From Salinirubrum litoreum (GTDB lineage: Archaea; Halobacteriota; Halobacteria; Halobacteriales; Haloferacaceae): a stretch of 64,000 bases of DNA. Positions 20,156-30,500 of this stretch are shown one piece after another; the stretch's first letter is position 1, and every line of letters begins with the position of its first letter. The notes below the pieces were generated by a model that had not been told where the DNA came from, searched no databases, and saw only the letters and a list, made by a program, of their open reading frames with translations. The translations under genes and the position numbers were made by a program. Location of the stretch: contig NZ_JAJCVJ010000002.1 of the NCBI RefSeq assembly GCF_020567425.1, forward strand, positions 599,068 through 663,067, given 5' to 3'.

Positions 20156-23100
20156 ATGCGACAACCTTCTGCGACGCCCGACCGAACCGACGCGGGACAG
20201 CCACTCTCGCCGCTACTCGTTCTCTGCGTGACGCTCTGGCTCGTCACGGCACCGGTCGCGGGTGTCGTCGCACCGGCGGCGACGCCGGCCACCGGGACGC
20301 CCTCGGTACTCGATCCGGCACCGACCGCCGGCAACGACGCTGGCGTCGGCGCGGCCGGCAACGACGCCGGTCTCCCGCCGGGGACCGTCACCCCCGACCC
20401 GAACCAGTCGGCCATCGCACCCGCACCCGGTCCCGACCCGCACACACTCGACGCGAGCGACTACGTCTCCGCCCCGGTGAACGTCACGCTCGTCACCGGA
20501 ACGACGGTGACCGTCGTCCCCCGACCGAACGAGAGCACGTATCGCGTCCACGGGACCGCCGACACCGAGACCGTTCACACCGACCGTGGGACCTACGTCT
20601 TCCCGACGGAGACCGACCTGTCGGCGTTCGACCGTGCACTGTTCAACGTCGACCTGCTGGTCGCCCAGAACCTCACGGACGCCGAGACCGACTCGATTCC
20701 GGTCATCGTGACCGGTGCCGGCGGCGACGGCCGCGTCGGTGCCGACTCGACCACCGCGACCGCAGGTGTCCGCACCGCGACGAGCGGCGTCGAGGGCGTC
20801 AGCGTCGGCCGCTCGTTGCCGAGCATCGGCGCAGTCGCGGGGCGGATCGACACGTCCGCGTCGGGACAGCCCACGACCGTCACGACCGACAGACGGGCGG
20901 TCGGCACGACCGATGCAGGCGCGGCGACCACGACCGTCTCGCCCGCCGAGTCCCTCGGGTCGACCGACGCGGTCGGTCGCGTCTACCTCGACCAGCAGGT
21001 CCAGCCACACCTCGACAACGCGGTGAACGTCACCGGCACCTACCGCGCCCGCCGGCAGTTCGACGTGAGCGGCGAGGGCGTCCGGGTCGCGGTGCTGGAC
21101 ACCGGCATCGACGACACCCACCCCGACCTCGACGACGCGGTCGTCGCCGAGCGGGACTTCACCGGCGAGGGCCTGCAGAACGACCCGGTCGGCCACGGAA
21201 CCCACGTCGCGGGCATCGTGGCCGGTGACGGGACCGCCAGCGACGGCGACTACGTCGGCTACGCGCCGGACGCGAGCCTCCTCAACGCGCGCGTCCTCGG
21301 TACCGACGGCGGGTCCGTCTCCGACGTGATCGCCGGTGTCGAGTGGGCGGTCGCGGAAAACGCCGACGTCGTCTCGATGAGTCTCGGTGCGGACGCGTGG
21401 GCACCCTCCGACCCCCTGACGCGGGCGGTCGAGAACGCGACCGACGACGGCGTGACCGTCGTCGTCTCGGCGGGCAACGACGGCTCCTACGGGTCTGAGA
21501 CGATCGGCACGCCGGGCATCGCCGAGTCGGCGATCACGGTCGGCGCGACAGACGACGCCGACCGACTGACCGCCTTCTCCTCGCGCGGACCGACGCCGTA
21601 CGCCGAGCGCGTGAAACCCGATCTCGTCGCGCCGGGCGAGGGGATCAACAGCACCTGCTCGCCGGAGCGCGGGGACGACTGCGTGGACACCGAGACGCCC
21701 TACGTCTCGAAGTCCGGGACGAGCATGTCCGCACCGGGCGTCAGCGGCGTGGCCGCCCTGCTCGAAGAGCAGGAGGACGACGACGGCGACGCGAAGACGG
21801 ATCTCTCGCCCGCCGAGACGAAGGCCCGACTCGTCACCAGCACCGACCGCCTGTCCGGCTACACGGTCTACCAGACCGGCAGTGGTCGCCTGAACGCGAC
21901 CCGCGCACTCGAGTCCGACCTCCGACTGAGCGACGGGACGATCGACGTGGGAGCGGTCGTCGGCGAGAACGAGACCGCGACCGTGACGATCACCAACACC
22001 GGCGACGACACCGTACTCCTGCCGGTCGAACTGGTCGTGACGGACGAGGCCGGCGAGTCCCGACCCGCAGGCGCGGCGACGAACGTCTCCGGCGACAGCA
22101 TCCTGCTCGGTGCCGGCGCGTCGAAGACGGTCGGGGTCGAGGTGGACGCCGGTGCGACCGCGGGCACCTACTCCGCCCGCCTACAGTTCGGCGACGACGG
22201 GAACCACCCGGCCGAGCGTCGGACCGTCAGTCTCGGCTGGCAGACCGCGATCAAGACCGTGACGGTCGAGAAGCGCGCCGCCAGCGGTGAGCCCTCCGAC
22301 GTGTGGTCCGACGAACTCCGCGTGATCGGACAGGACACGGACGTCAGCAGAAGCGGGTGGGTCTCTCAGACCGACACGCTCTCGTTCGACGTACCGATCG
22401 GCACCTACACGCTCGCGTCGTGGGGAACCGACGAGACGACCGGTCAGCCGGTGTTGCTGGCCCGAACCGCGACAGTCGACGCGGACACGACGACCCTGAC
22501 CCTCTCGGAGAACGAAACCGTCACCTACGGGTTCGACGGTTCGAACCTCGCGCCCGAGACGGTCGACACGATCGGTGTCTTCGGCGGCATCTCGCACGGT
22601 TCGACGCCGGGCTACACGTGGACACAGCCGAGCCAGCGTGCGTCGTCGATCCGCGTCAGCGCCGGGTCGAACGTGCGGGCGACCCTGGGCGTCCTCGCGG
22701 TCGGGAAAGACAGGTACGACTACACGGAGACCGACCTCGGCGACGGCTCGGCGTACAGTCTCGGCTTCTACACCGACGGCGTGGACGGGCCCGAGACGTT
22801 CGCGCCGGGGGAGTCGTCGCTCTCGACGCTGAACTACACGCTGTACCGTGGCGGGCCGACCGCCCAGTACCGCTTCGAGACGGGCGGATTCGCGGCGAGC
22901 GACGCGGCCGTCGAATCGCTCGGCGCGAGCGTCGGGGACACACGTCGACTCGAACTGCGAACCAACCACGACGACGGGCAGTACCACGAGGTCGAGAACG
23001 TCGACGCCGGCGCGGACGACTCGTGGGCGTACTCGCTCTTCGGAGACGGGGTCGTTCCGACGAACACGGCGGAGACGACGGTCAACGAGCGACCGTTCAC

Positions 23101-25981
23101 CACGACCGTCGACTGGACGTTCGACGACACCGACGGGCGACTGACGGTCGTCGGCGAGGCGCTGTCGGAGCAGGGCGCGCACCGCACGGAACTCCGCGGT
23201 CTCGACGGCCGTGTCCGTGTCAGCAAGAACGGTGAGGTCGTCGAACGCGGCGATCTGCTCGGCGGGTTCTCCTTCGACGTGGACCGCACTGCGGGACTCG
23301 GCGACACCTACCGCGTCTCGGTCAGGACGAACGGGTCGCTCCGCCGGTCCGGCCCGCGCGCGACGACGACCCTCGAAGGCACGAACTACCCCGACGCCGA
23401 CGGGACGCCGCCGAGTGTCGAACGACTCGACGTGCCCGCCCTCGGCCTGAACGGCGGTGTGCCGGCCGAACGAGTCGCGCTGAACCTCACGCTGTCGGAC
23501 GCCGGCGAGAAGACGGCCGGCGTGGCGGACGTGCAGGTGCGGTACGCGCCCGGCGACGTGGCGACGGCGGCGTGGGAGAACGGCACGCCGACCGACGCGT
23601 GGCAGACCGCGCCCGTCGGCGAGGTCGGCGGGCCGACGACCCAGACCGCGACGCTCGACCTGCGGGAGTTCCGGGCCGAGCGCGTGAGCATCGCGGTCCG
23701 CGTGAGTGACGGCAACGGGAACTACGTCGTCCACCACGCGTACGACAGCCTCGCGGTCGGTCGGTACACGGGCGACACGGCACCGCCGCGACCCAGCCTC
23801 TCGGGGCGGATCGAGAACGCGACCGGTCCCGTCTCGACCAACGACAGCGTCCTGTACTACGAGGACGGACGCGGGAGTCGACTCGACGCCGTCGTGACGA
23901 ACGAGACCGGCAGGTTCGAGGCGACGCCCGACAACGGGACGGTCGCGTTGACCTACCTCCAGACGAACTACCCGGCGACGACGCCGCGCGACGCCGACGG
24001 GAGCGTGGACCGCTCGGGCCGGTTCTGGGAGAAGCGGTTCGCCCGCGACGGGACGCCGGACGTCTACTCGCTCGGCGAGCGTCGGGTCGACGGCCCGACC
24101 GACCTCGGCGAGACCGTCACGCTCCCCGAGGCCGGGACGCTGAACGTCTCGGTCGTGAACGAGAGCGGCGCACCGGTCGAGGGCGCCGTCGTCGTCGTCC
24201 AGCACCACGCGCCGGACGGGAGCGCGACCGCGAGCTGGCGCAACGACACCGACGCCGACGGCCTGTTCCAGAACTACGCGACCGTCCGGCCGGGTGTCGA
24301 ACTCCACGGCGACGTGACGATCACGGTGGTCCCGCCGGACGACGACGGCTACGTGAATCGGCGCTACAGCCGAGCGTTGACGATGGACGCCGGCGACGAG
24401 CGAATCGAGGTCGTGCTGGCGGAGAACACCACGATCACCGGGCGTATCGAGACGCCCGACGGAAGCGCCTCCAGCGACGACGTCGTCTCCGTCTGGAACG
24501 AGTCGGGCGACGACTACGAGTTCGACCGGACCGCCGCCGACGGCGGGTTCGCGGTGACGAACGTCTCGCCGGGCGAGTACGGCCTGTACGTCCTCCCGGA
24601 GGTGGACGACGGTGACGGTCCCGAGGTCGCACCGCGTGACGGCGTGGTCGACTTCTACACGCCCGGACTGGTGGACGCGACCGACGACGTGGACACGGGG
24701 ACGACGACGCTCCCGCGCGGCCACGTGCTGAACGTGTCGGTCGTGGACGCGTGGGGTGACCCGTCACCCGACGAGCGAGTCGTCGTCACCCACACCAACG
24801 GCGGGGCGAACCTGAGCGTCGGCTACACGACCGACGAGCAGGGGCGACTCCTCGCGGACGACGACGGGACGCTCGGGGTCGAGGTTCCCCGCGAGGTCAC
24901 TGTCTCTCCCGCCGACGAGAACTACGCTCCGGTGGGCGAGACGCGCTCGCTGACCGTGACCGAGGACCGGACCGTCTCGGTCGTGGTGCCCGGAACGGCC
25001 GACAGCCCGTTGACGGTCCGTGCGACACCGACCGAGGCGACCGTCGGCGACCCGATCCGAGCCACGCTGACCCGGAGCCGTGACGGCGCGCCCGTTTCCG
25101 GCACGGTCGAGGTGAACGGGACGACCCACGAGACCGGGCCGGACGGCGCGGTGAACGTCACGCTGAACGGTGCCGGGAGCTACCTGATCGAGGGCGAGAC
25201 CGAACTCGAGACCGGCCGCGTCGTCCGCGACTCCGTCCGCGTCGAAGTCGAGTCCGGTGGTGGCGGCGGCGGCGGGGGCGGGGGCGGCGGTGGTGGCGGA
25301 GGGACCCCGATTCCGCCGGCCGGTATCGTCGACGTGCGGCAGACCGACGCGGGTGCGCTGGTCACCGCCGAGAAGGTGAAGGGTGGCCGACTCATCCGGA
25401 ACCTCCTGCCGAACGTGGCGAGCGACGACGTGACGGTCGAACAGTTCGCGTTCAAACTGACCGAGGACGACCGGCGGTTCACTGCCGAGTTCACCGCGAG
25501 CAACGAGGTGCCCGCCGACACGGGCGCGCCAGCGTTGGACGACTCGCTCGGCTACCTGCGCGTCGAGACCGGCGGCCTGACCGACGCGCACGTGGACAAC
25601 GCGAAGTTCCGGTTCGAGGTCGCCCGGTCGGCGATGGACGACCTCGGCGCAGGCCCCGCAGAGGTGCAGTTGTACCGCTACCACGACGGCGAGTGGCAGG
25701 CGGTCGAGACCCGCCACGCGAGCGGGACGACCTTCGTCGGCGTGACGCCGGGCTTCTCGGTGTTCGCCATCGGCGTCCAGTCGCAGGACACCGGTACGCA
25801 GACCGCGACCGCGACGCCGACGCCGACCGCGACCGAGTCGTCACAGGGGACGACCGCGAGCGCCGACTCCCCGACGCCGGAGTCGACCGAGACGACCGGT
25901 CCGGGCTTCGGTCCGGCGGTCTCGCTGGTCGCGCTCCTGGCGGTGACACTGCTCGCCCGGTCGGTGCGTCGACGGGACTGA
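20156..25981 (+). CDS. Giant secreted subtilisin-like protease with PGF-CTERM anchor
   Basis: This 1941-residue protein has a signal peptide (hydrophobic LLVLCVTLWLVTAPVAG, about residues 20-37), a propeptide region to about 300, and a subtilase domain with Asp315 in VLDTGIDD, His347 in GHGTHVAG, Asn441 in SAGND and Ser523 in GTSMSAP, so the catalytic set is complete. After it come several beta-sandwich regions including carboxypeptidase-regulatory-like repeats (GTLNVSVVNESGAPVEGAVV, TTITGRIETPDGS), a long Gly linker near residue 1702, a PGF-pre-PGF domain (about 1720-1880), a Thr/Pro/Ser linker and the C-terminal PGFGPAVSLVALLAVTLLARS signal, which archaeosortase A is expected to process. 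It is therefore predicted as a lipid-anchored cell-surface protease. It is several times longer than typical halolysins. Confidence 0.92.
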   Translation: MRQPSATPDRTDAGQPLSPLLVLCVTLWLVTAPVAGVVAPAATPATGTPSVLDPAPTAGNDAGVGAAGNDAGLPPGTVTPDPNQSAIAPAPGPDPHTLDASDYVSAPVNVTLVTGTTVTVVPRPNESTYRVHGTADTETVHTDRGTYVFPTETDLSAFDRALFNVDLLVAQNLTDAETDSIPVIVTGAGGDGRVGADSTTATAGVRTATSGVEGVSVGRSLPSIGAVAGRIDTSASGQPTTVTTDRRAVGTTDAGAATTTVSPAESLGSTDAVGRVYLDQQVQPHLDNAVNVTGTYRARRQFDVSGEGVRVAVLDTGIDDTHPDLDDAVVAERDFTGEGLQNDPVGHGTHVAGIVAGDGTASDGDYVGYAPDASLLNARVLGTDGGSVSDVIAGVEWAVAENADVVSMSLGADAWAPSDPLTRAVENATDDGVTVVVSAGNDGSYGSETIGTPGIAESAITVGATDDADRLTAFSSRGPTPYAERVKPDLVAPGEGINSTCSPERGDDCVDTETPYVSKSGTSMSAPGVSGVAALLEEQEDDDGDAKTDLSPAETKARLVTSTDRLSGYTVYQTGSGRLNATRALESDLRLSDGTIDVGAVVGENETATVTITNTGDDTVLLPVELVVTDEAGESRPAGAATNVSGDSILLGAGASKTVGVEVDAGATAGTYSARLQFGDDGNHPAERRTVSLGWQTAIKTVTVEKRAASGEPSDVWSDELRVIGQDTDVSRSGWVSQTDTLSFDVPIGTYTLASWGTDETTGQPVLLARTATVDADTTTLTLSENETVTYGFDGSNLAPETVDTIGVFGGISHGSTPGYTWTQPSQRASSIRVSAGSNVRATLGVLAVGKDRYDYTETDLGDGSAYSLGFYTDGVDGPETFAPGESSLSTLNYTLYRGGPTAQYRFETGGFAASDAAVESLGASVGDTRRLELRTNHDDGQYHEVENVDAGADDSWAYSLFGDGVVPTNTAETTVNERPFTTTVDWTFDDTDGRLTVVGEALSEQGAHRTELRGLDGRVRVSKNGEVVERGDLLGGFSFDVDRTAGLGDTYRVSVRTNGSLRRSGPRATTTLEGTNYPDADGTPPSVERLDVPALGLNGGVPAERVALNLTLSDAGEKTAGVADVQVRYAPGDVATAAWENGTPTDAWQTAPVGEVGGPTTQTATLDLREFRAERVSIAVRVSDGNGNYVVHHAYDSLAVGRYTGDTAPPRPSLSGRIENATGPVSTNDSVLYYEDGRGSRLDAVVTNETGRFEATPDNGTVALTYLQTNYPATTPRDADGSVDRSGRFWEKRFARDGTPDVYSLGERRVDGPTDLGETVTLPEAGTLNVSVVNESGAPVEGAVVVVQHHAPDGSATASWRNDTDADGLFQNYATVRPGVELHGDVTITVVPPDDDGYVNRRYSRALTMDAGDERIEVVLAENTTITGRIETPDGSASSDDVVSVWNESGDDYEFDRTAADGGFAVTNVSPGEYGLYVLPEVDDGDGPEVAPRDGVVDFYTPGLVDATDDVDTGTTTLPRGHVLNVSVVDAWGDPSPDERVVVTHTNGGANLSVGYTTDEQGRLLADDDGTLGVEVPREVTVSPADENYAPVGETRSLTVTEDRTVSVVVPGTADSPLTVRATPTEATVGDPIRATLTRSRDGAPVSGTVEVNGTTHETGPDGAVNVTLNGAGSYLIEGETELETGRVVRDSVRVEVESGGGGGGGGGGGGGGGGTPIPPAGIVDVRQTDAGALVTAEKVKGGRLIRNLLPNVASDDVTVEQFAFKLTEDDRRFTAEFTASNEVPADTGAPALDDSLGYLRVETGGLTDAHVDNAKFRFEVARSAMDDLGAGPAEVQLYRYHDGEWQAVETRHASGTTFVGVTPGFSVFAIGVQSQDTGTQTATATPTPTATESSQGTTASADSPTPESTETTGPGFGPAVSLVALLAVTLLARSVRRRD

Positions 25982-26680: not shown

Positions 26681-27991
26681 ATGCCCTCTCTCGACCGACG
26701 GTTCGTGGTACTCGCCTGCTGTGTCGCGGTTCTGACGGCGACGATCGGCCTCGCGGCGACGACCGACGCGCCCGTGCCGGTCGTCCCCGACGCGGGAGGC
26801 GACACCGCCGCCGACGCACCTGCGCCGACCGACGCCGTCGCCCGCCTCCACGGCGCGGGCTACACCGGCGAAAACGTCACCGTCGGCGTCCTCGACGTCA
26901 CCGGCTTCGACACCGGCCATCCGGCGCTGGCGGGGCGCGTCGCCGGGACGCGGGCGTTCGCGGACGGCGAGACGATCGCGAACGGCGGCCGGACCGACCA
27001 CGGGACCGCCGTGGCGAGCGTCGTCGCCCGGACCGCGCCTGCGGCGGATCTCTACCTCGCGTCGTTCGACACCGACGACGGCTTCCAGCAGGGCGTCGCG
27101 TGGCTCCTCGGCCGTGACGTGGACGTCGTCGTCGCTCCGGTGTCGTTCCCCGGCGCGCCCGGCGACGGGACCAGCGCGGTCGCCCGCGCGGTACAGCGGG
27201 CGGCCCGCCAGGGCGTGATCGTCGTCGCGCCGACCGGCAACGTCGGACAGAACCACTGGGAGGGTCGGTTCGACCCCGTCGACGCCGGGACGCACCTCTT
27301 CGAGCGCGGGACACGCAACTACCTCCTCCCCGGCGAGCGCACCGACGAGCGGATCCGCCTGTGGCTGTCGTGGGACGCGACGAGCGAGCGGCGCGACTTC
27401 ACGCTCGCGCTGTACGCCGTCGAGGGTGGCGAGCGCCGCCTGCTGGCCCGGTCACAGCCCTACCCGGCCGACTCCGCGCCGAACGAACGCCTCGTGGCGA
27501 CGCTGGAGGCGAACACGACCTACTACGTCGTCCTGCGCGGCCCGCCCGACGCCGCCGGGGCCCGGGTCGCGGTGACCAGTCCGACCCACCGGCTCTCGAT
27601 CGGCACCCGTGCCGACAGTCTGGTCGCCCCCGCTAGCGCGCGCCCGGTCCTCGCGGTCGGGTCGTACGACCGGGAAGGCGGCTACGTCGACCCCTTCAGC
27701 GCGGCCGGCCCGGTCGCGGACGGTCGCTCCGGCGTCGACCTCGTCGCCCCGGACGGCTACGCGGTCGCCGGCCGGGACGCGGCGTTCGACGGTACCTCCG
27801 CGAGTGCGGCCTACGTCGCGGGCGTCGCGGCACTCGTCGTCGACGCCGCGCCGGCGCGGTCGGCCGCCGAGGTCCGCCGGAGTCTCGCGGTCACGACCAC
27901 CGACACCGGCCCGCCGGGCGTCGACCCGACCGGCGGTCACGGTCGCGTCCGACCGGTCGCGGCGGTCCGGGCGGCACGGAACGCGACGTGA
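26681..27991 (+). CDS. Secreted S8 family serine protease with an inserted domain
   Basis: The ATG at 26681 starts a 436-residue protein with a signal peptide (FVVLACCVAVLTATIGLAA); the frame is open further upstream but antisense to the DUF4112 gene. The subtilase triad is visible: Asp72 in VLDVTGFD, His107 in TDHGTAVAS and Ser373 in DGTSASAAYVAG, with the oxyanion Asn in APTGNVG. Between Asn and Ser lies an extra region of roughly 110 residues (IRLWLSWDATSERRDFTLALYAVEG to TTYYVVLRG) that looks like a pre-peptidase C-terminal-type beta-sandwich inserted into the catalytic domain. No C-terminal anchor is present, so the protein is likely released. Surrounding DNA has a higher proportion of alanine and arginine codons than neighbours. 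Confidence 0.85.
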   Translation: MPSLDRRFVVLACCVAVLTATIGLAATTDAPVPVVPDAGGDTAADAPAPTDAVARLHGAGYTGENVTVGVLDVTGFDTGHPALAGRVAGTRAFADGETIANGGRTDHGTAVASVVARTAPAADLYLASFDTDDGFQQGVAWLLGRDVDVVVAPVSFPGAPGDGTSAVARAVQRAARQGVIVVAPTGNVGQNHWEGRFDPVDAGTHLFERGTRNYLLPGERTDERIRLWLSWDATSERRDFTLALYAVEGGERRLLARSQPYPADSAPNERLVATLEANTTYYVVLRGPPDAAGARVAVTSPTHRLSIGTRADSLVAPASARPVLAVGSYDREGGYVDPFSAAGPVADGRSGVDLVAPDGYAVAGRDAAFDGTSASAAYVAGVAALVVDAAPARSAAEVRRSLAVTTTDTGPPGVDPTGGHGRVRPVAAVRAARNAT

Positions 27992-28012
27992 GGCTCAAAA
28001 ATCGACTGAACC
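27992..28012. promoter_or_regulatory. Candidate operator, dyad GGCTCA-N9-TGAACC, site 1
   Basis: An imperfect inverted repeat with 6-base arms and a 9-base spacer, starting directly after the subtilase stop codon and ending 45 bases before the ATG of the winged-helix regulator. A CTTTGG TATA-like motif at 28024-28029 follows it. The same dyad with the same spacer occurs at 30480-30500. It is a probable binding site of the regulator encoded here. Confidence 0.6.
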
Positions 28013-28057
28013 GACAGGTACCCCTTTGGACCCGCCGGGCGAACACCCCACAAGCGC

Positions 28058-28663
28058 ATGTCGTCCTACATCGAACGCCTCCAGAACCGAACCGACGGGC
28101 GGGAGACGCGCCGCCGCGTGCTCACGCTGTCGGACGACGACGCCGCCGAGGTCCTCGGGACGCTCTCGTCGGACACGAGTCGGCGGGTCTACCGGTCGCT
28201 GTTCGACGCCCCGGCGACCCCCTCCGAACTCGCCGCCCGGCACGACCTCTCGATCCAGAACGTCCACTACCACCTCTCGAACCTCGACGAGGCCGGTCTC
28301 GTCACGACCGTCGACACGGTCTACTCCGAGAAGGGCCAGGAGATGACGGTGTACGGTCCCGCGAGCGACCCACTCGTCCTCGTGGGCGAGGAGGACCGCG
28401 CGTCGTCCATCGACCGGTCGCTCCGGGACGTCGTCACCGGTCTCGGGGGGCTGGCGGCCGCCAGCCTCCTCGTCCAGTGGGGCGCTGAACGACTCGCTCG
28501 CGGCGGGACGGGGGCGGCCGCCGAACCGGCCGGCCTCGGTCCGGTCACGGGCGAACCGGTCGGGACGCTGTCGTGGCTCGTCTTCGGCGTCCTCGAACCG
28601 GGGCTCGTCTTCTTCGTCGCCTGTCTCGTGCTCGCGGCCGTCGCCGTCCGGTTTCGGGCGTAG
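28058..28663 (+). CDS. Membrane-bound winged-helix (ArsR-like) regulator
   Basis: This 201-residue protein begins with a winged-helix DNA-binding domain (about residues 25-105): DTSRRVYRSLFDAPATPSELAARHDLSIQNVHYHLSNLDEAGLV, then the wing TVYSEKGQEMTVYGPA. Two hydrophobic segments follow (about 128-145 and 170-195, the second FGVLEPGLVFFVACLVLAAVAV), so the regulator is tethered to the membrane. A dyad repeat lies 45 bases upstream of its ATG, and an equal one lies upstream of the surface-protein gene on the opposite strand, suggesting that it controls itself and that gene, perhaps in response to a membrane or surface signal. The regulation is inference. Confidence 0.85.
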   Translation: MSSYIERLQNRTDGRETRRRVLTLSDDDAAEVLGTLSSDTSRRVYRSLFDAPATPSELAARHDLSIQNVHYHLSNLDEAGLVTTVDTVYSEKGQEMTVYGPASDPLVLVGEEDRASSIDRSLRDVVTGLGGLAAASLLVQWGAERLARGGTGAAAEPAGLGPVTGEPVGTLSWLVFGVLEPGLVFFVACLVLAAVAVRFRA

Positions 28664-28686: not shown

Positions 28687-30309
28687 TCAGTCCCGGACGC
28701 CGCCGACGATGGCGACCAGCGCGAGGAGCGCGAGCAGTCCGCCGCCGCCGAGGGCGGCGAGCGCCGTGACCGGGAGCGACTCGTCGGTCGCGGGGTCGTT
28801 CGTCGTCTCGCTCGCGGGGGAGGGCTGGACGACGAGTGTGCCGATGTCCGCCGGGCCGTCGGTGACCGTGGCCCCACGGTGGAGCGCGAGCGAGTAGTCG
28901 CCCGCCGGCAGGCCGCGTCGTGACGAGTCGACCGCCGAGGCGTTCGTCCGCCGGACCGTCGCCTCGTCGTCGCCGGCGGCCCGCCAGGCGTCACCCTCGG
29001 CGACCGCGGTCGTGTCGAACAGGAGGCGGACCCGGCCGTCGTCGTTCGCGTCGCGGGCGGTGACGACCGCGGTGTAGTTCTCCGAGGGGCCGCCGAACCG
29101 CAGTGTCGCGGCGTCGGCGTCGCCGAGCGTCATCGCCACCCCGAAGACCTGGCCGCGACGGGTCGTCAACACGTTCCCGTCGAGGCCGAACTCGGCGACG
29201 GGAGTCGTCTCGGTGCGCCGGTCGGCGTCCGTGGCCGGCAGGACGAGCGTCCCGGTGTCGACGACCGCGCCGTCGACGAACAGCCGAACCGGGTACGCCC
29301 CGGCGTCGAGTCCGTCCTGCCCGGCGGGGAGTGCCGTCTCGTCGGTGACGGTCACGGTGTCGCTGTCTCCCCGCGCGCTCAGAGTGGGGACGCCCTCGTC
29401 GGGCGTGCCGGCGGCGGTCCGGTTCACCGCGACCCTGACGCGGCCGTCGCCGTTCTCGTCGGTCACGGTCCCGTTGACTCGGTAGTTGACCGACGCGTCA
29501 CCGATCACGATCCGTGCCTCGCTCGCGTCGGCCAGCGTCACCGGGAGACCGGGTTCCGTCCCGGCGAGCAACTCGACCGTGTCCGGCACGCCGGTCTCGT
29601 CGGCCGTCGCCGTCTGGCGGCAGTCCTCGCAGGCGGCGACGGTACGGGTCGTCTCGGTCAGGACGCCGCCGTCCCGCCGCACCGCGACCGAGAGCGTCGA
29701 GTTCGGGTCGGCGTCGGACAGGTCGACGACCGCCCGGAACCGCCCGTCACGGCCGACCGTTGCCGTCTCGGAGACGAGCAGGGCCGTCCCGCCGGTCGAG
29801 CGGACGCGGACCGTCAGGTCGGTGCCGGGGGCGACGGCGGCCCGCCCCTCGATGGCGACGCCGGGACCGGCGGGTGCCGGGTCGGTCGACGTGACGCGCG
29901 TGGTCTCCGCGGCGGCGCGACAGCCGTCACAGGCGACGACGGTCCCGGTCGTCTCGGCGACGGTCGTCCCGTTGTAGTGGACGACCGCCTCGAACTCGCT
30001 GCCCGGCGAGACCGCCGAGAGGTCAACGACGGAGCGGAACCGGCCGTCGCGGTCGACGGTCGTCGAGTCGGCCAGCAGGAACGGCGAGGCGCTGCCGCTC
30101 GACTGGAGGCGGACGCTCACCTCGGTCCCCGGCGGCAGGTCGGTCGTGCCGGCGACGACCGCGCCGGCCGTGGCGTTGACCGTGATCGACTCGCCCTCGT
30201 GGACGAACGTGGTGTCTGCGGGAGGACTCGCCGGATCTGCCGCCGTCGCGCCGCCGACCAGGGGTCCGGCGACGAGAAGGACACAGACGAGGACGGGGAG
30301 TCGACTCAT
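28687..30309 (-). CDS. BGTF-type surface protein with C-terminal membrane anchor
   Basis: This 540-residue protein has a signal peptide (LPVLVCVLLVAGPLVGGATA), two similar domains of about 100 residues (PGTEVSVRLQSSGSASPFLL with TTVDRDGRFRSVVDLS; PGTDLTVRVRSTGGTALLV with ATVGRDGRFRAVVDLS), each ending in a paired-cysteine CDGC or CEDC motif, then two similar domains of another type (NYRVNGTVTDENGDGRVRVAV; NYTAVVTARDANDDGRVRLLF). A C-terminal helix (ALAALGGGGLLALLALVAIVGG) ends in VRD and anchors it. It resembles haloarchaeal BGTF/S-layer-like surface proteins. Its ATG overlaps the stop of a small upstream ORF (ATGA), and a dyad lies further upstream. It converges on the regulator gene with 23 bases between. 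Confidence 0.82.
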   Translation of the reverse strand: MSRLPVLVCVLLVAGPLVGGATAADPASPPADTTFVHEGESITVNATAGAVVAGTTDLPPGTEVSVRLQSSGSASPFLLADSTTVDRDGRFRSVVDLSAVSPGSEFEAVVHYNGTTVAETTGTVVACDGCRAAAETTRVTSTDPAPAGPGVAIEGRAAVAPGTDLTVRVRSTGGTALLVSETATVGRDGRFRAVVDLSDADPNSTLSVAVRRDGGVLTETTRTVAACEDCRQTATADETGVPDTVELLAGTEPGLPVTLADASEARIVIGDASVNYRVNGTVTDENGDGRVRVAVNRTAAGTPDEGVPTLSARGDSDTVTVTDETALPAGQDGLDAGAYPVRLFVDGAVVDTGTLVLPATDADRRTETTPVAEFGLDGNVLTTRRGQVFGVAMTLGDADAATLRFGGPSENYTAVVTARDANDDGRVRLLFDTTAVAEGDAWRAAGDDEATVRRTNASAVDSSRRGLPAGDYSLALHRGATVTDGPADIGTLVVQPSPASETTNDPATDESLPVTALAALGGGGLLALLALVAIVGGVRD

Positions 30310-30437
30310 CGGGCCACCTCCGGCGGTGCGGGTGGTCGCGGCGACGACGCCGGCGGCGTCGTCCCCGGCGGCCGGAGGCCGATACGTCGGTGCGTGCCGG
30401 TCGGAGGTGACCGGCGTGGAGGGCAGTTGCGTCTCAT
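30306..30437 (-). CDS. Possible 43-residue leader ORF overlapping the BGTF surface-protein start
   Basis: An ATG at 30437 opens a 43-codon frame (MRRNCPPRRSPPTGTHRR at the start, proline- and arginine-rich throughout) whose TGA stop overlaps the ATG of the BGTF gene as ATGA, a classic coupling arrangement. On this strand a CTAAT motif at 30465-30469 lies about 30 bases before the ATG and a dyad operator ends 42 bases before it, matching the promoter layout of the winged-helix gene. This supports transcription starting at or near this ATG. No homology is known to me; it could be only a leader that couples translation, or untranslated. Confidence 0.4.
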   Translation of the reverse strand: MRRNCPPRRSPPTGTHRRIGLRPPGTTPPASSPRPPAPPEVAR

Positions 30438-30479
30438 GCCAGTCTCGACTACACGGGACGCCCCATTAGTGCCACTGGA

Positions 30480-30500
30480 GGCTCAAAATTCGGTTGAACC
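30480..30500. promoter_or_regulatory. Candidate operator, dyad GGCTCA-N9-TGAACC, site 2
   Basis: Same arms and same 9-base spacer as the site at 27992-28012, here upstream of the leader ORF and the BGTF gene on the minus strand. The CTAAT TATA-like motif at 30465-30469 lies about 10 bases closer to the gene, giving a layout equal to that of site 1. Confidence 0.6.

Follow-up and report, generated by a model that had tools for sequence, protein, structure and literature searches.

We find that a dyad present twice within a single haloarchaeal locus is likely to be the operator of REG, a winged-helix regulator with a predicted membrane tether; its paralogs probably use the dyad as well. The dyad lies in the promoters of both the regulator and a BGTF surface protein, which REG would most likely activate upon an envelope signal. 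Operators have been identified for only a small number of archaeal transcription factors, and ArnR provides most of what is known about the membrane-bound kind. In the literature that we searched, mostly outside subscription journals, we came across no paper on HVO_1552 and none on the BGTF module. For a large haloarchaeal regulator family, the analysis thus predicts an operator, describes a promoter geometry that is fixed and points to a conserved target module of surface protein and protease, so that envelope sensing and adjustment can be tested directly in Haloarcula or Haloferax strains amenable to genetics.

Two promoters of one locus share a dyad

Within the window, the whole 64,000-nt stretch of Salinirubrum litoreum DNA analysed here, the original prediction had placed GGCTCA-N9-TGAACC at 27992–28012 and 30480–30500, and both matches are exact, with coordinates right to the base (Table 1). 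The promoter features it described around these sites were likewise recovered: 45 nt separate site 1 from the ATG at 28058 and 42 nt separate site 2 from the ATG at 30437, a TATA-like motif lies just outside each site (CTTTG at 28024–28028; CTAAT at 30469–30465 on the minus strand), and site 2 is followed by a small ORF that overlaps the BGTF ATG at 30309. The two 21-mers share 18 of their 21 bases, and their outer arms form an imperfect inverted repeat (GGCTCA versus GGTTCA). The register kept in relatives is 20 bp long, TCAAA-N6-TTTGA, corresponding to 27993–28012 at site 1 and 30481–30500 at site 2, and the right half-site in the window has drifted to GGTTCAR.

Table 1 Features of the regulator and surface-protein locus in the window
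Feature	Coordinates	Strand	Description	Evidence
SUB	26681..27991	+	Secreted or membrane-anchored S8 (subtilase) protease	PF00082; N-terminal hydrophobic segment; synteny
Site 1	27992..28012	+	Regulator-promoter dyad, GGCTCAAAAATCGACTGAACC	Exact match; homologous dyad in orthologous promoters
TATA-like CTTTG	28024..28028	+	Regulator promoter, +12 to +16 after dyad; estimated TSS ~28053	
REG	28058..28663	+	Winged-helix regulator, predicted to be membrane-tethered, 201 aa	Pfam; model; hydrophobic segment
BGTF	28687..30309	-	Surface protein, 540 aa, BGTF surface domains and DUF7827	NF045517, PF25162
Leader ORF	30306..30437	-	43 aa, start near estimated TSS, overlaps BGTF start (ATGA)	
CCCTCC element	30417..30425	-	TGCCCTCCA, near BGTF transcript 5' end	CCCTCC conservation
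TATA-like CTAAT	30465..30469	-	BGTF promoter, +12 to +16 after dyad; estimated TSS ~30440	
Site 2	30480..30500	-	BGTF-promoter dyad, GGTTCAACCGAATTTTGAGCC	Exact match; matrix score

In Pfam, REG matches HTH_20 (PF12840; 46.9 bits against a gathering score of 27, residues 36–85) and HVO_1552_C (PF24267; 29.9 bits against 27, residues 110–197). Its AlphaFold model comprises a confident winged helix–turn–helix (wHTH), a long helix (112–148), a disordered loop and helices at 170–200; in this tail, one hydrophobic segment is strong (174–192) and the helix at 112–148 is weaker, TM1 being only moderately hydrophobic. The S8 protease gene SUB, a conserved member of the module, lies directly upstream of REG and ends right at the dyad, site 1 being immediately 3' of its stop codon. 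Upstream of the module, positions 20156–25981 (+) encode another S8 protease, secreted and 1941 aa long, which has repeat domains together with a membrane segment at its C terminus.

The BGTF protein scores 126.4 bits against NF045517, for which the curated cut-off is 40, and carries hydrophobic segments at residues 6–24 (signal peptide) and 517–535 (C-terminal membrane segment). Against the ArtA-dependent S-layer glycoprotein equivalog NF041335 it reaches 128 bits where 1100 are required, and it is therefore not assigned to that class. Two further, longer BGTF-domain genes of the same genome, at C1:1468–1472 kb, are probably S-layer glycoproteins; a scan with a looser pattern found no dyad at either, and we therefore rejected dyad control of these two genes. 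Relatives also have comparable leader ORFs upstream of BGTF.

The dyad is conserved at orthologous promoters

The module of S8 protease, regulator and BGTF protein is conserved in more than 40 haloarchaeal genomes, and REG orthologs neighbour the protease and BGTF genes in most genomes examined. The layout of BGTF varies: it may face REG convergently, lie co-directionally on the upstream side of the protease, or diverge from the protease; that the genes keep company even though their order is rearranged argues for a functional link. At four Halonotius loci, REG has a dyad and neither a protease nor a BGTF gene was found nearby, and the module was not found in Haloferax.

Absence of the dyad from orthologous loci had been named in advance as the outcome that would tell against the original prediction; instead, a homologous dyad is kept in the regulator promoter and mostly also in the BGTF promoter. 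Orthologous regulator promoters carry the 20-bp dyad GSTCAAA-N6-TTTGASC. At the module loci of the window's family, 27 of 28 REG promoters have a TCAAA-N6-TTTGA-like dyad, mostly 57–75 nt upstream of the start, and outside this family the dyad occurs in the REG promoter of nearly all named module loci.

We built a half-site matrix solely from REG promoters of one family, with each genus excluded in turn, and used it to scan 15-kb loci. In 11 loci, scored by a matrix that excluded the genus in question, the BGTF promoter came first or second within the 15 kb, and in most loci with a convergent or co-directional layout the top two sites were those of the REG and BGTF promoters. In a 12-kb stretch of the window, site 2 obtained the top score (17.8), followed by site 1 (14.3) and then by a next-best match at 5.6. 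When named genomes from further families (Haloarcula, Halosimplex, Halorussus, Natrialba and others) were scanned with this matrix, REG sites ranked first or second at nearly all loci. At 19 of 31 named loci, the best non-REG site lay in the zone upstream of BGTF, and 12 of 14 genera were positive by majority (binomial p 7e-11, which is somewhat overstated because genera were treated as independent). Among the 12 exceptions, Haloarcula and some relatives have a higher-scoring site upstream of the protease gene or of a lipoprotein gene, with BGTF usually next. The idea that regulator and surface protein are under shared control survived this comparison. Loci in which BGTF now lies on the upstream side of the protease keep the dyad too.

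Divergent REG paralogs, which served as a negative control, mostly lack a dyad upstream, the exceptions being the paralog at locus L141 and two others. In a Halobellus-like clade (L049–L057, L066, L067 and L114), BGTF promoters carry at the dyad position only a weak variant, GCGTAAA-N6-TYGAAGC, which is conserved within the clade.

Promoter geometry favours activation

Among orthologs, A/T content peaks at +13 to +15 after the dyad (CTTTG, CTATA, CTTAG) and again at +31. The TATA/TSS spacing is constant, and both window sites fit this register exactly. From these A/T peaks the TSS is predicted at around +41, so that the dyad would span about −61 to −42; because REG starts at +41 or slightly later, its mRNA is predicted to be leaderless or nearly so. 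The dyad would therefore sit just upstream of the BRE and TATA box, as do the GvpE upstream activating sequence (UAS) and the ArnR boxes, and on this geometry we favour activation with moderate confidence. In the proposed mechanism, a REG dimer would occupy the dyad, adjoining the BRE, at both the REG and the BGTF promoter, and bound REG would most likely recruit TBP/TFB to weak TATA boxes. The envelope signal would be relayed by the predicted membrane tail, perhaps with a part for the S8 protease, the conserved neighbour of REG.

Bacterial regulators of the ToxR/CadC type resemble REG, as predicted here, in combining a DNA-binding domain and a membrane sensor in one polypeptide and in targeting envelope genes, and differ from it in their unrelated OmpR-type domain, single-pass topology and large periplasmic domain. 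The closest precedent is ArnR/ArnR1 of Sulfolobus acidocaldarius, a membrane-bound one-component regulator with an N-terminal HTH, a HAMP and a sensing domain, whose boxes (TCGAC-N5-GTCGA, two per promoter, −43 to −84) serve archaellum and pilus genes (PMC6396743). Both are archaeal regulators, and REG is predicted to share with ArnR a membrane-bound location, inverted-repeat sites upstream of BRE/TATA and surface-structure targets. In contrast to ArnR, however, REG has no HAMP or sensing domain detectable by Pfam, and ArnR has no adjacent protease or BGTF module, so REG would work like ArnR without being a member of its family. The haloarchaeal GvpE UAS is a 20-nt activating element next to the BRE for which close spacing is essential for activation (PMC4390858). 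The dyad likewise comprises two half-sites within 20 nt that adjoin the BRE at strict spacing, whereas GvpE is soluble and leucine-zipper-like, has no membrane tether, acts on gas-vesicle genes and uses 8-nt half-sites placed 4 nt apart.

Alternative readings and the wider regulon

Raw counts of the dyad are unimpressive. Matches with up to two mismatches number 10 in the window against 3.7 expected, and GGYTCA-N9-TGARCC occurs at 3 places in the 4.06-Mb genome against 2 for a control pattern; two of the 3 are the window sites, and the third (C1:1528876) lies inside an ORF and was taken as chance. A looser 20-bp pattern occurs at 11 places in this genome, two of them at this locus, these genome scans having used IUPAC patterns rather than the matrix. 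Because the raw number is weak, the case rests on position and comparative conservation. Match numbers barely above controls would suit a constitutive promoter element or a chance repeat without a dedicated regulator, but this reading is highly improbable: in many genera the dyad recurs at a constant place in both promoters of the locus, and it is rare elsewhere in the genome and absent from most divergent paralog promoters; a chance repeat, in particular, was rejected on the positional conservation. The solved folds nearest the REG wHTH in the PDB are ArsR-type regulators, the closest structures being Pyrococcus PH1932 and the heat-shock regulator Phr (1uly, 2cwe, 2p4w), both of which differ from REG in lacking the HVO_1552_C membrane tail, and the repressor CzrA is also among them. 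These similarities would fit a REG that represses both its own gene and BGTF until a membrane signal lifts the repression, a possibility that we take seriously but consider doubtful, since the site is clear of the TATA box and TSS and abuts the BRE from upstream over weak TATA boxes, which is the position of an activator.

Which protein occupies the dyad is a separate matter. The genome encodes five members of the regulator family whose recognition helices are near-identical by inspection, similar dyads precede lipoprotein starts and some paralogs by 39–44 nt, Haloferax included, and one dyad lies just 3' of a MADLLPSR-type paralog. The dyad could thus be bound mainly by one or more paralogous membrane regulators, perhaps in competition, with REG and BGTF belonging to a larger envelope regulon. 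Genomes that lack the module carry dyads too, so paralogs may bind, and the presence of dyads before lipoprotein and paralog genes leads us to keep this reading as a substantial, if tentative, rival. REG, however, is physically linked to two dyads across families and its promoters almost always carry a site, which points to REG as the main binder there. Because the operator is probably family-wide, binding by REG itself rather than by a paralog is what we infer from this linkage.

In 170 genomes of the window's family, a strict pattern of the dyad occurs at about 105 places, against about 40 for a reversed control (table summed by hand). At many sampled sites, which were picked by eye and not randomly, the start codon of a lipoprotein, BGTF-like or REG-paralog gene falls at +39 to +44. 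Judged from these sequence patterns, the dyad is probably an operator common to the whole HVO_1552_C family, with a regulon that reaches lipoproteins. In the S. litoreum genome, dyads lie 40–41 nt before two lipoprotein-like genes (L156, G000:C1:1165676; L163, G000:C3:376981), both of which are likely regulon members of a REG-family regulator. At L179 and L180, a REG paralog and an adjoining lipoprotein gene each have a dyad, constituting a second regulator-plus-envelope-protein arrangement. At three other loci (L075 4781, L082 4777 and L090 4705), an extra secreted lipoprotein gene (MASLR/MALLR...C) is flanked by a dyad of its own on one side and by the protease gene on the other, and starts at +40/41 after that dyad.

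A CCCTCC element accompanies BGTF promoters

In 23 of 45 BGTF promoters, a CCCTCC motif follows the dyad at a distance of 40–60 nt (shuffled mean 0.7, maximum 4). It is found in none of 64 REG transcripts and in 8 of 12 transcripts 3' of paralogs. The BGTF leaders of L034–L132 also have TGCCCTCCA or CCCTCC near their 5' end. Two explanations for the motif were rejected. As leader-peptide residues it would be read in a frame that varies by clade (CPP, MPS, LQ), and in some cases it lies within coding sequence; because the reading frame differs between clades, conservation at the nucleotide level is likelier. Masking of the BGTF Shine–Dalgarno (SD) sequence in cis is predicted from pairing in only a few leaders and not in that of the window, and CCCTCC is kept where BGTF starts without an SD (L043, L046, L098 and L106), which argues against cis sequestration.

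A broader scheme, which we offer as speculation and rate as rather unlikely, would make envelope sensing two-layered: membrane regulators with a common operator would activate surface-protein and lipoprotein genes when a signal is sensed or cleaved on the cell surface, a step in which the S8 protease would take part, and CCCUCC in surface-protein transcripts and in short C-rich transcripts, which the common operator would drive next to regulator paralogs, would add control at the RNA level.

A strong dyad lies just 3' of MADLLPSR-type REG paralogs at L155 (G000:C1:180487, in the S. litoreum genome), L122, L136, L139, L143, L145, L147 and L148. A search of seven loci with candidate C-rich transcripts 3' of such paralogs gave no Rfam match at gathering scores. 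The paralog-adjacent dyads are followed by a TATA-like box and then by GGCCCTCC repeats with no obvious ORF, and we regard this region as a candidate small C-rich RNA.
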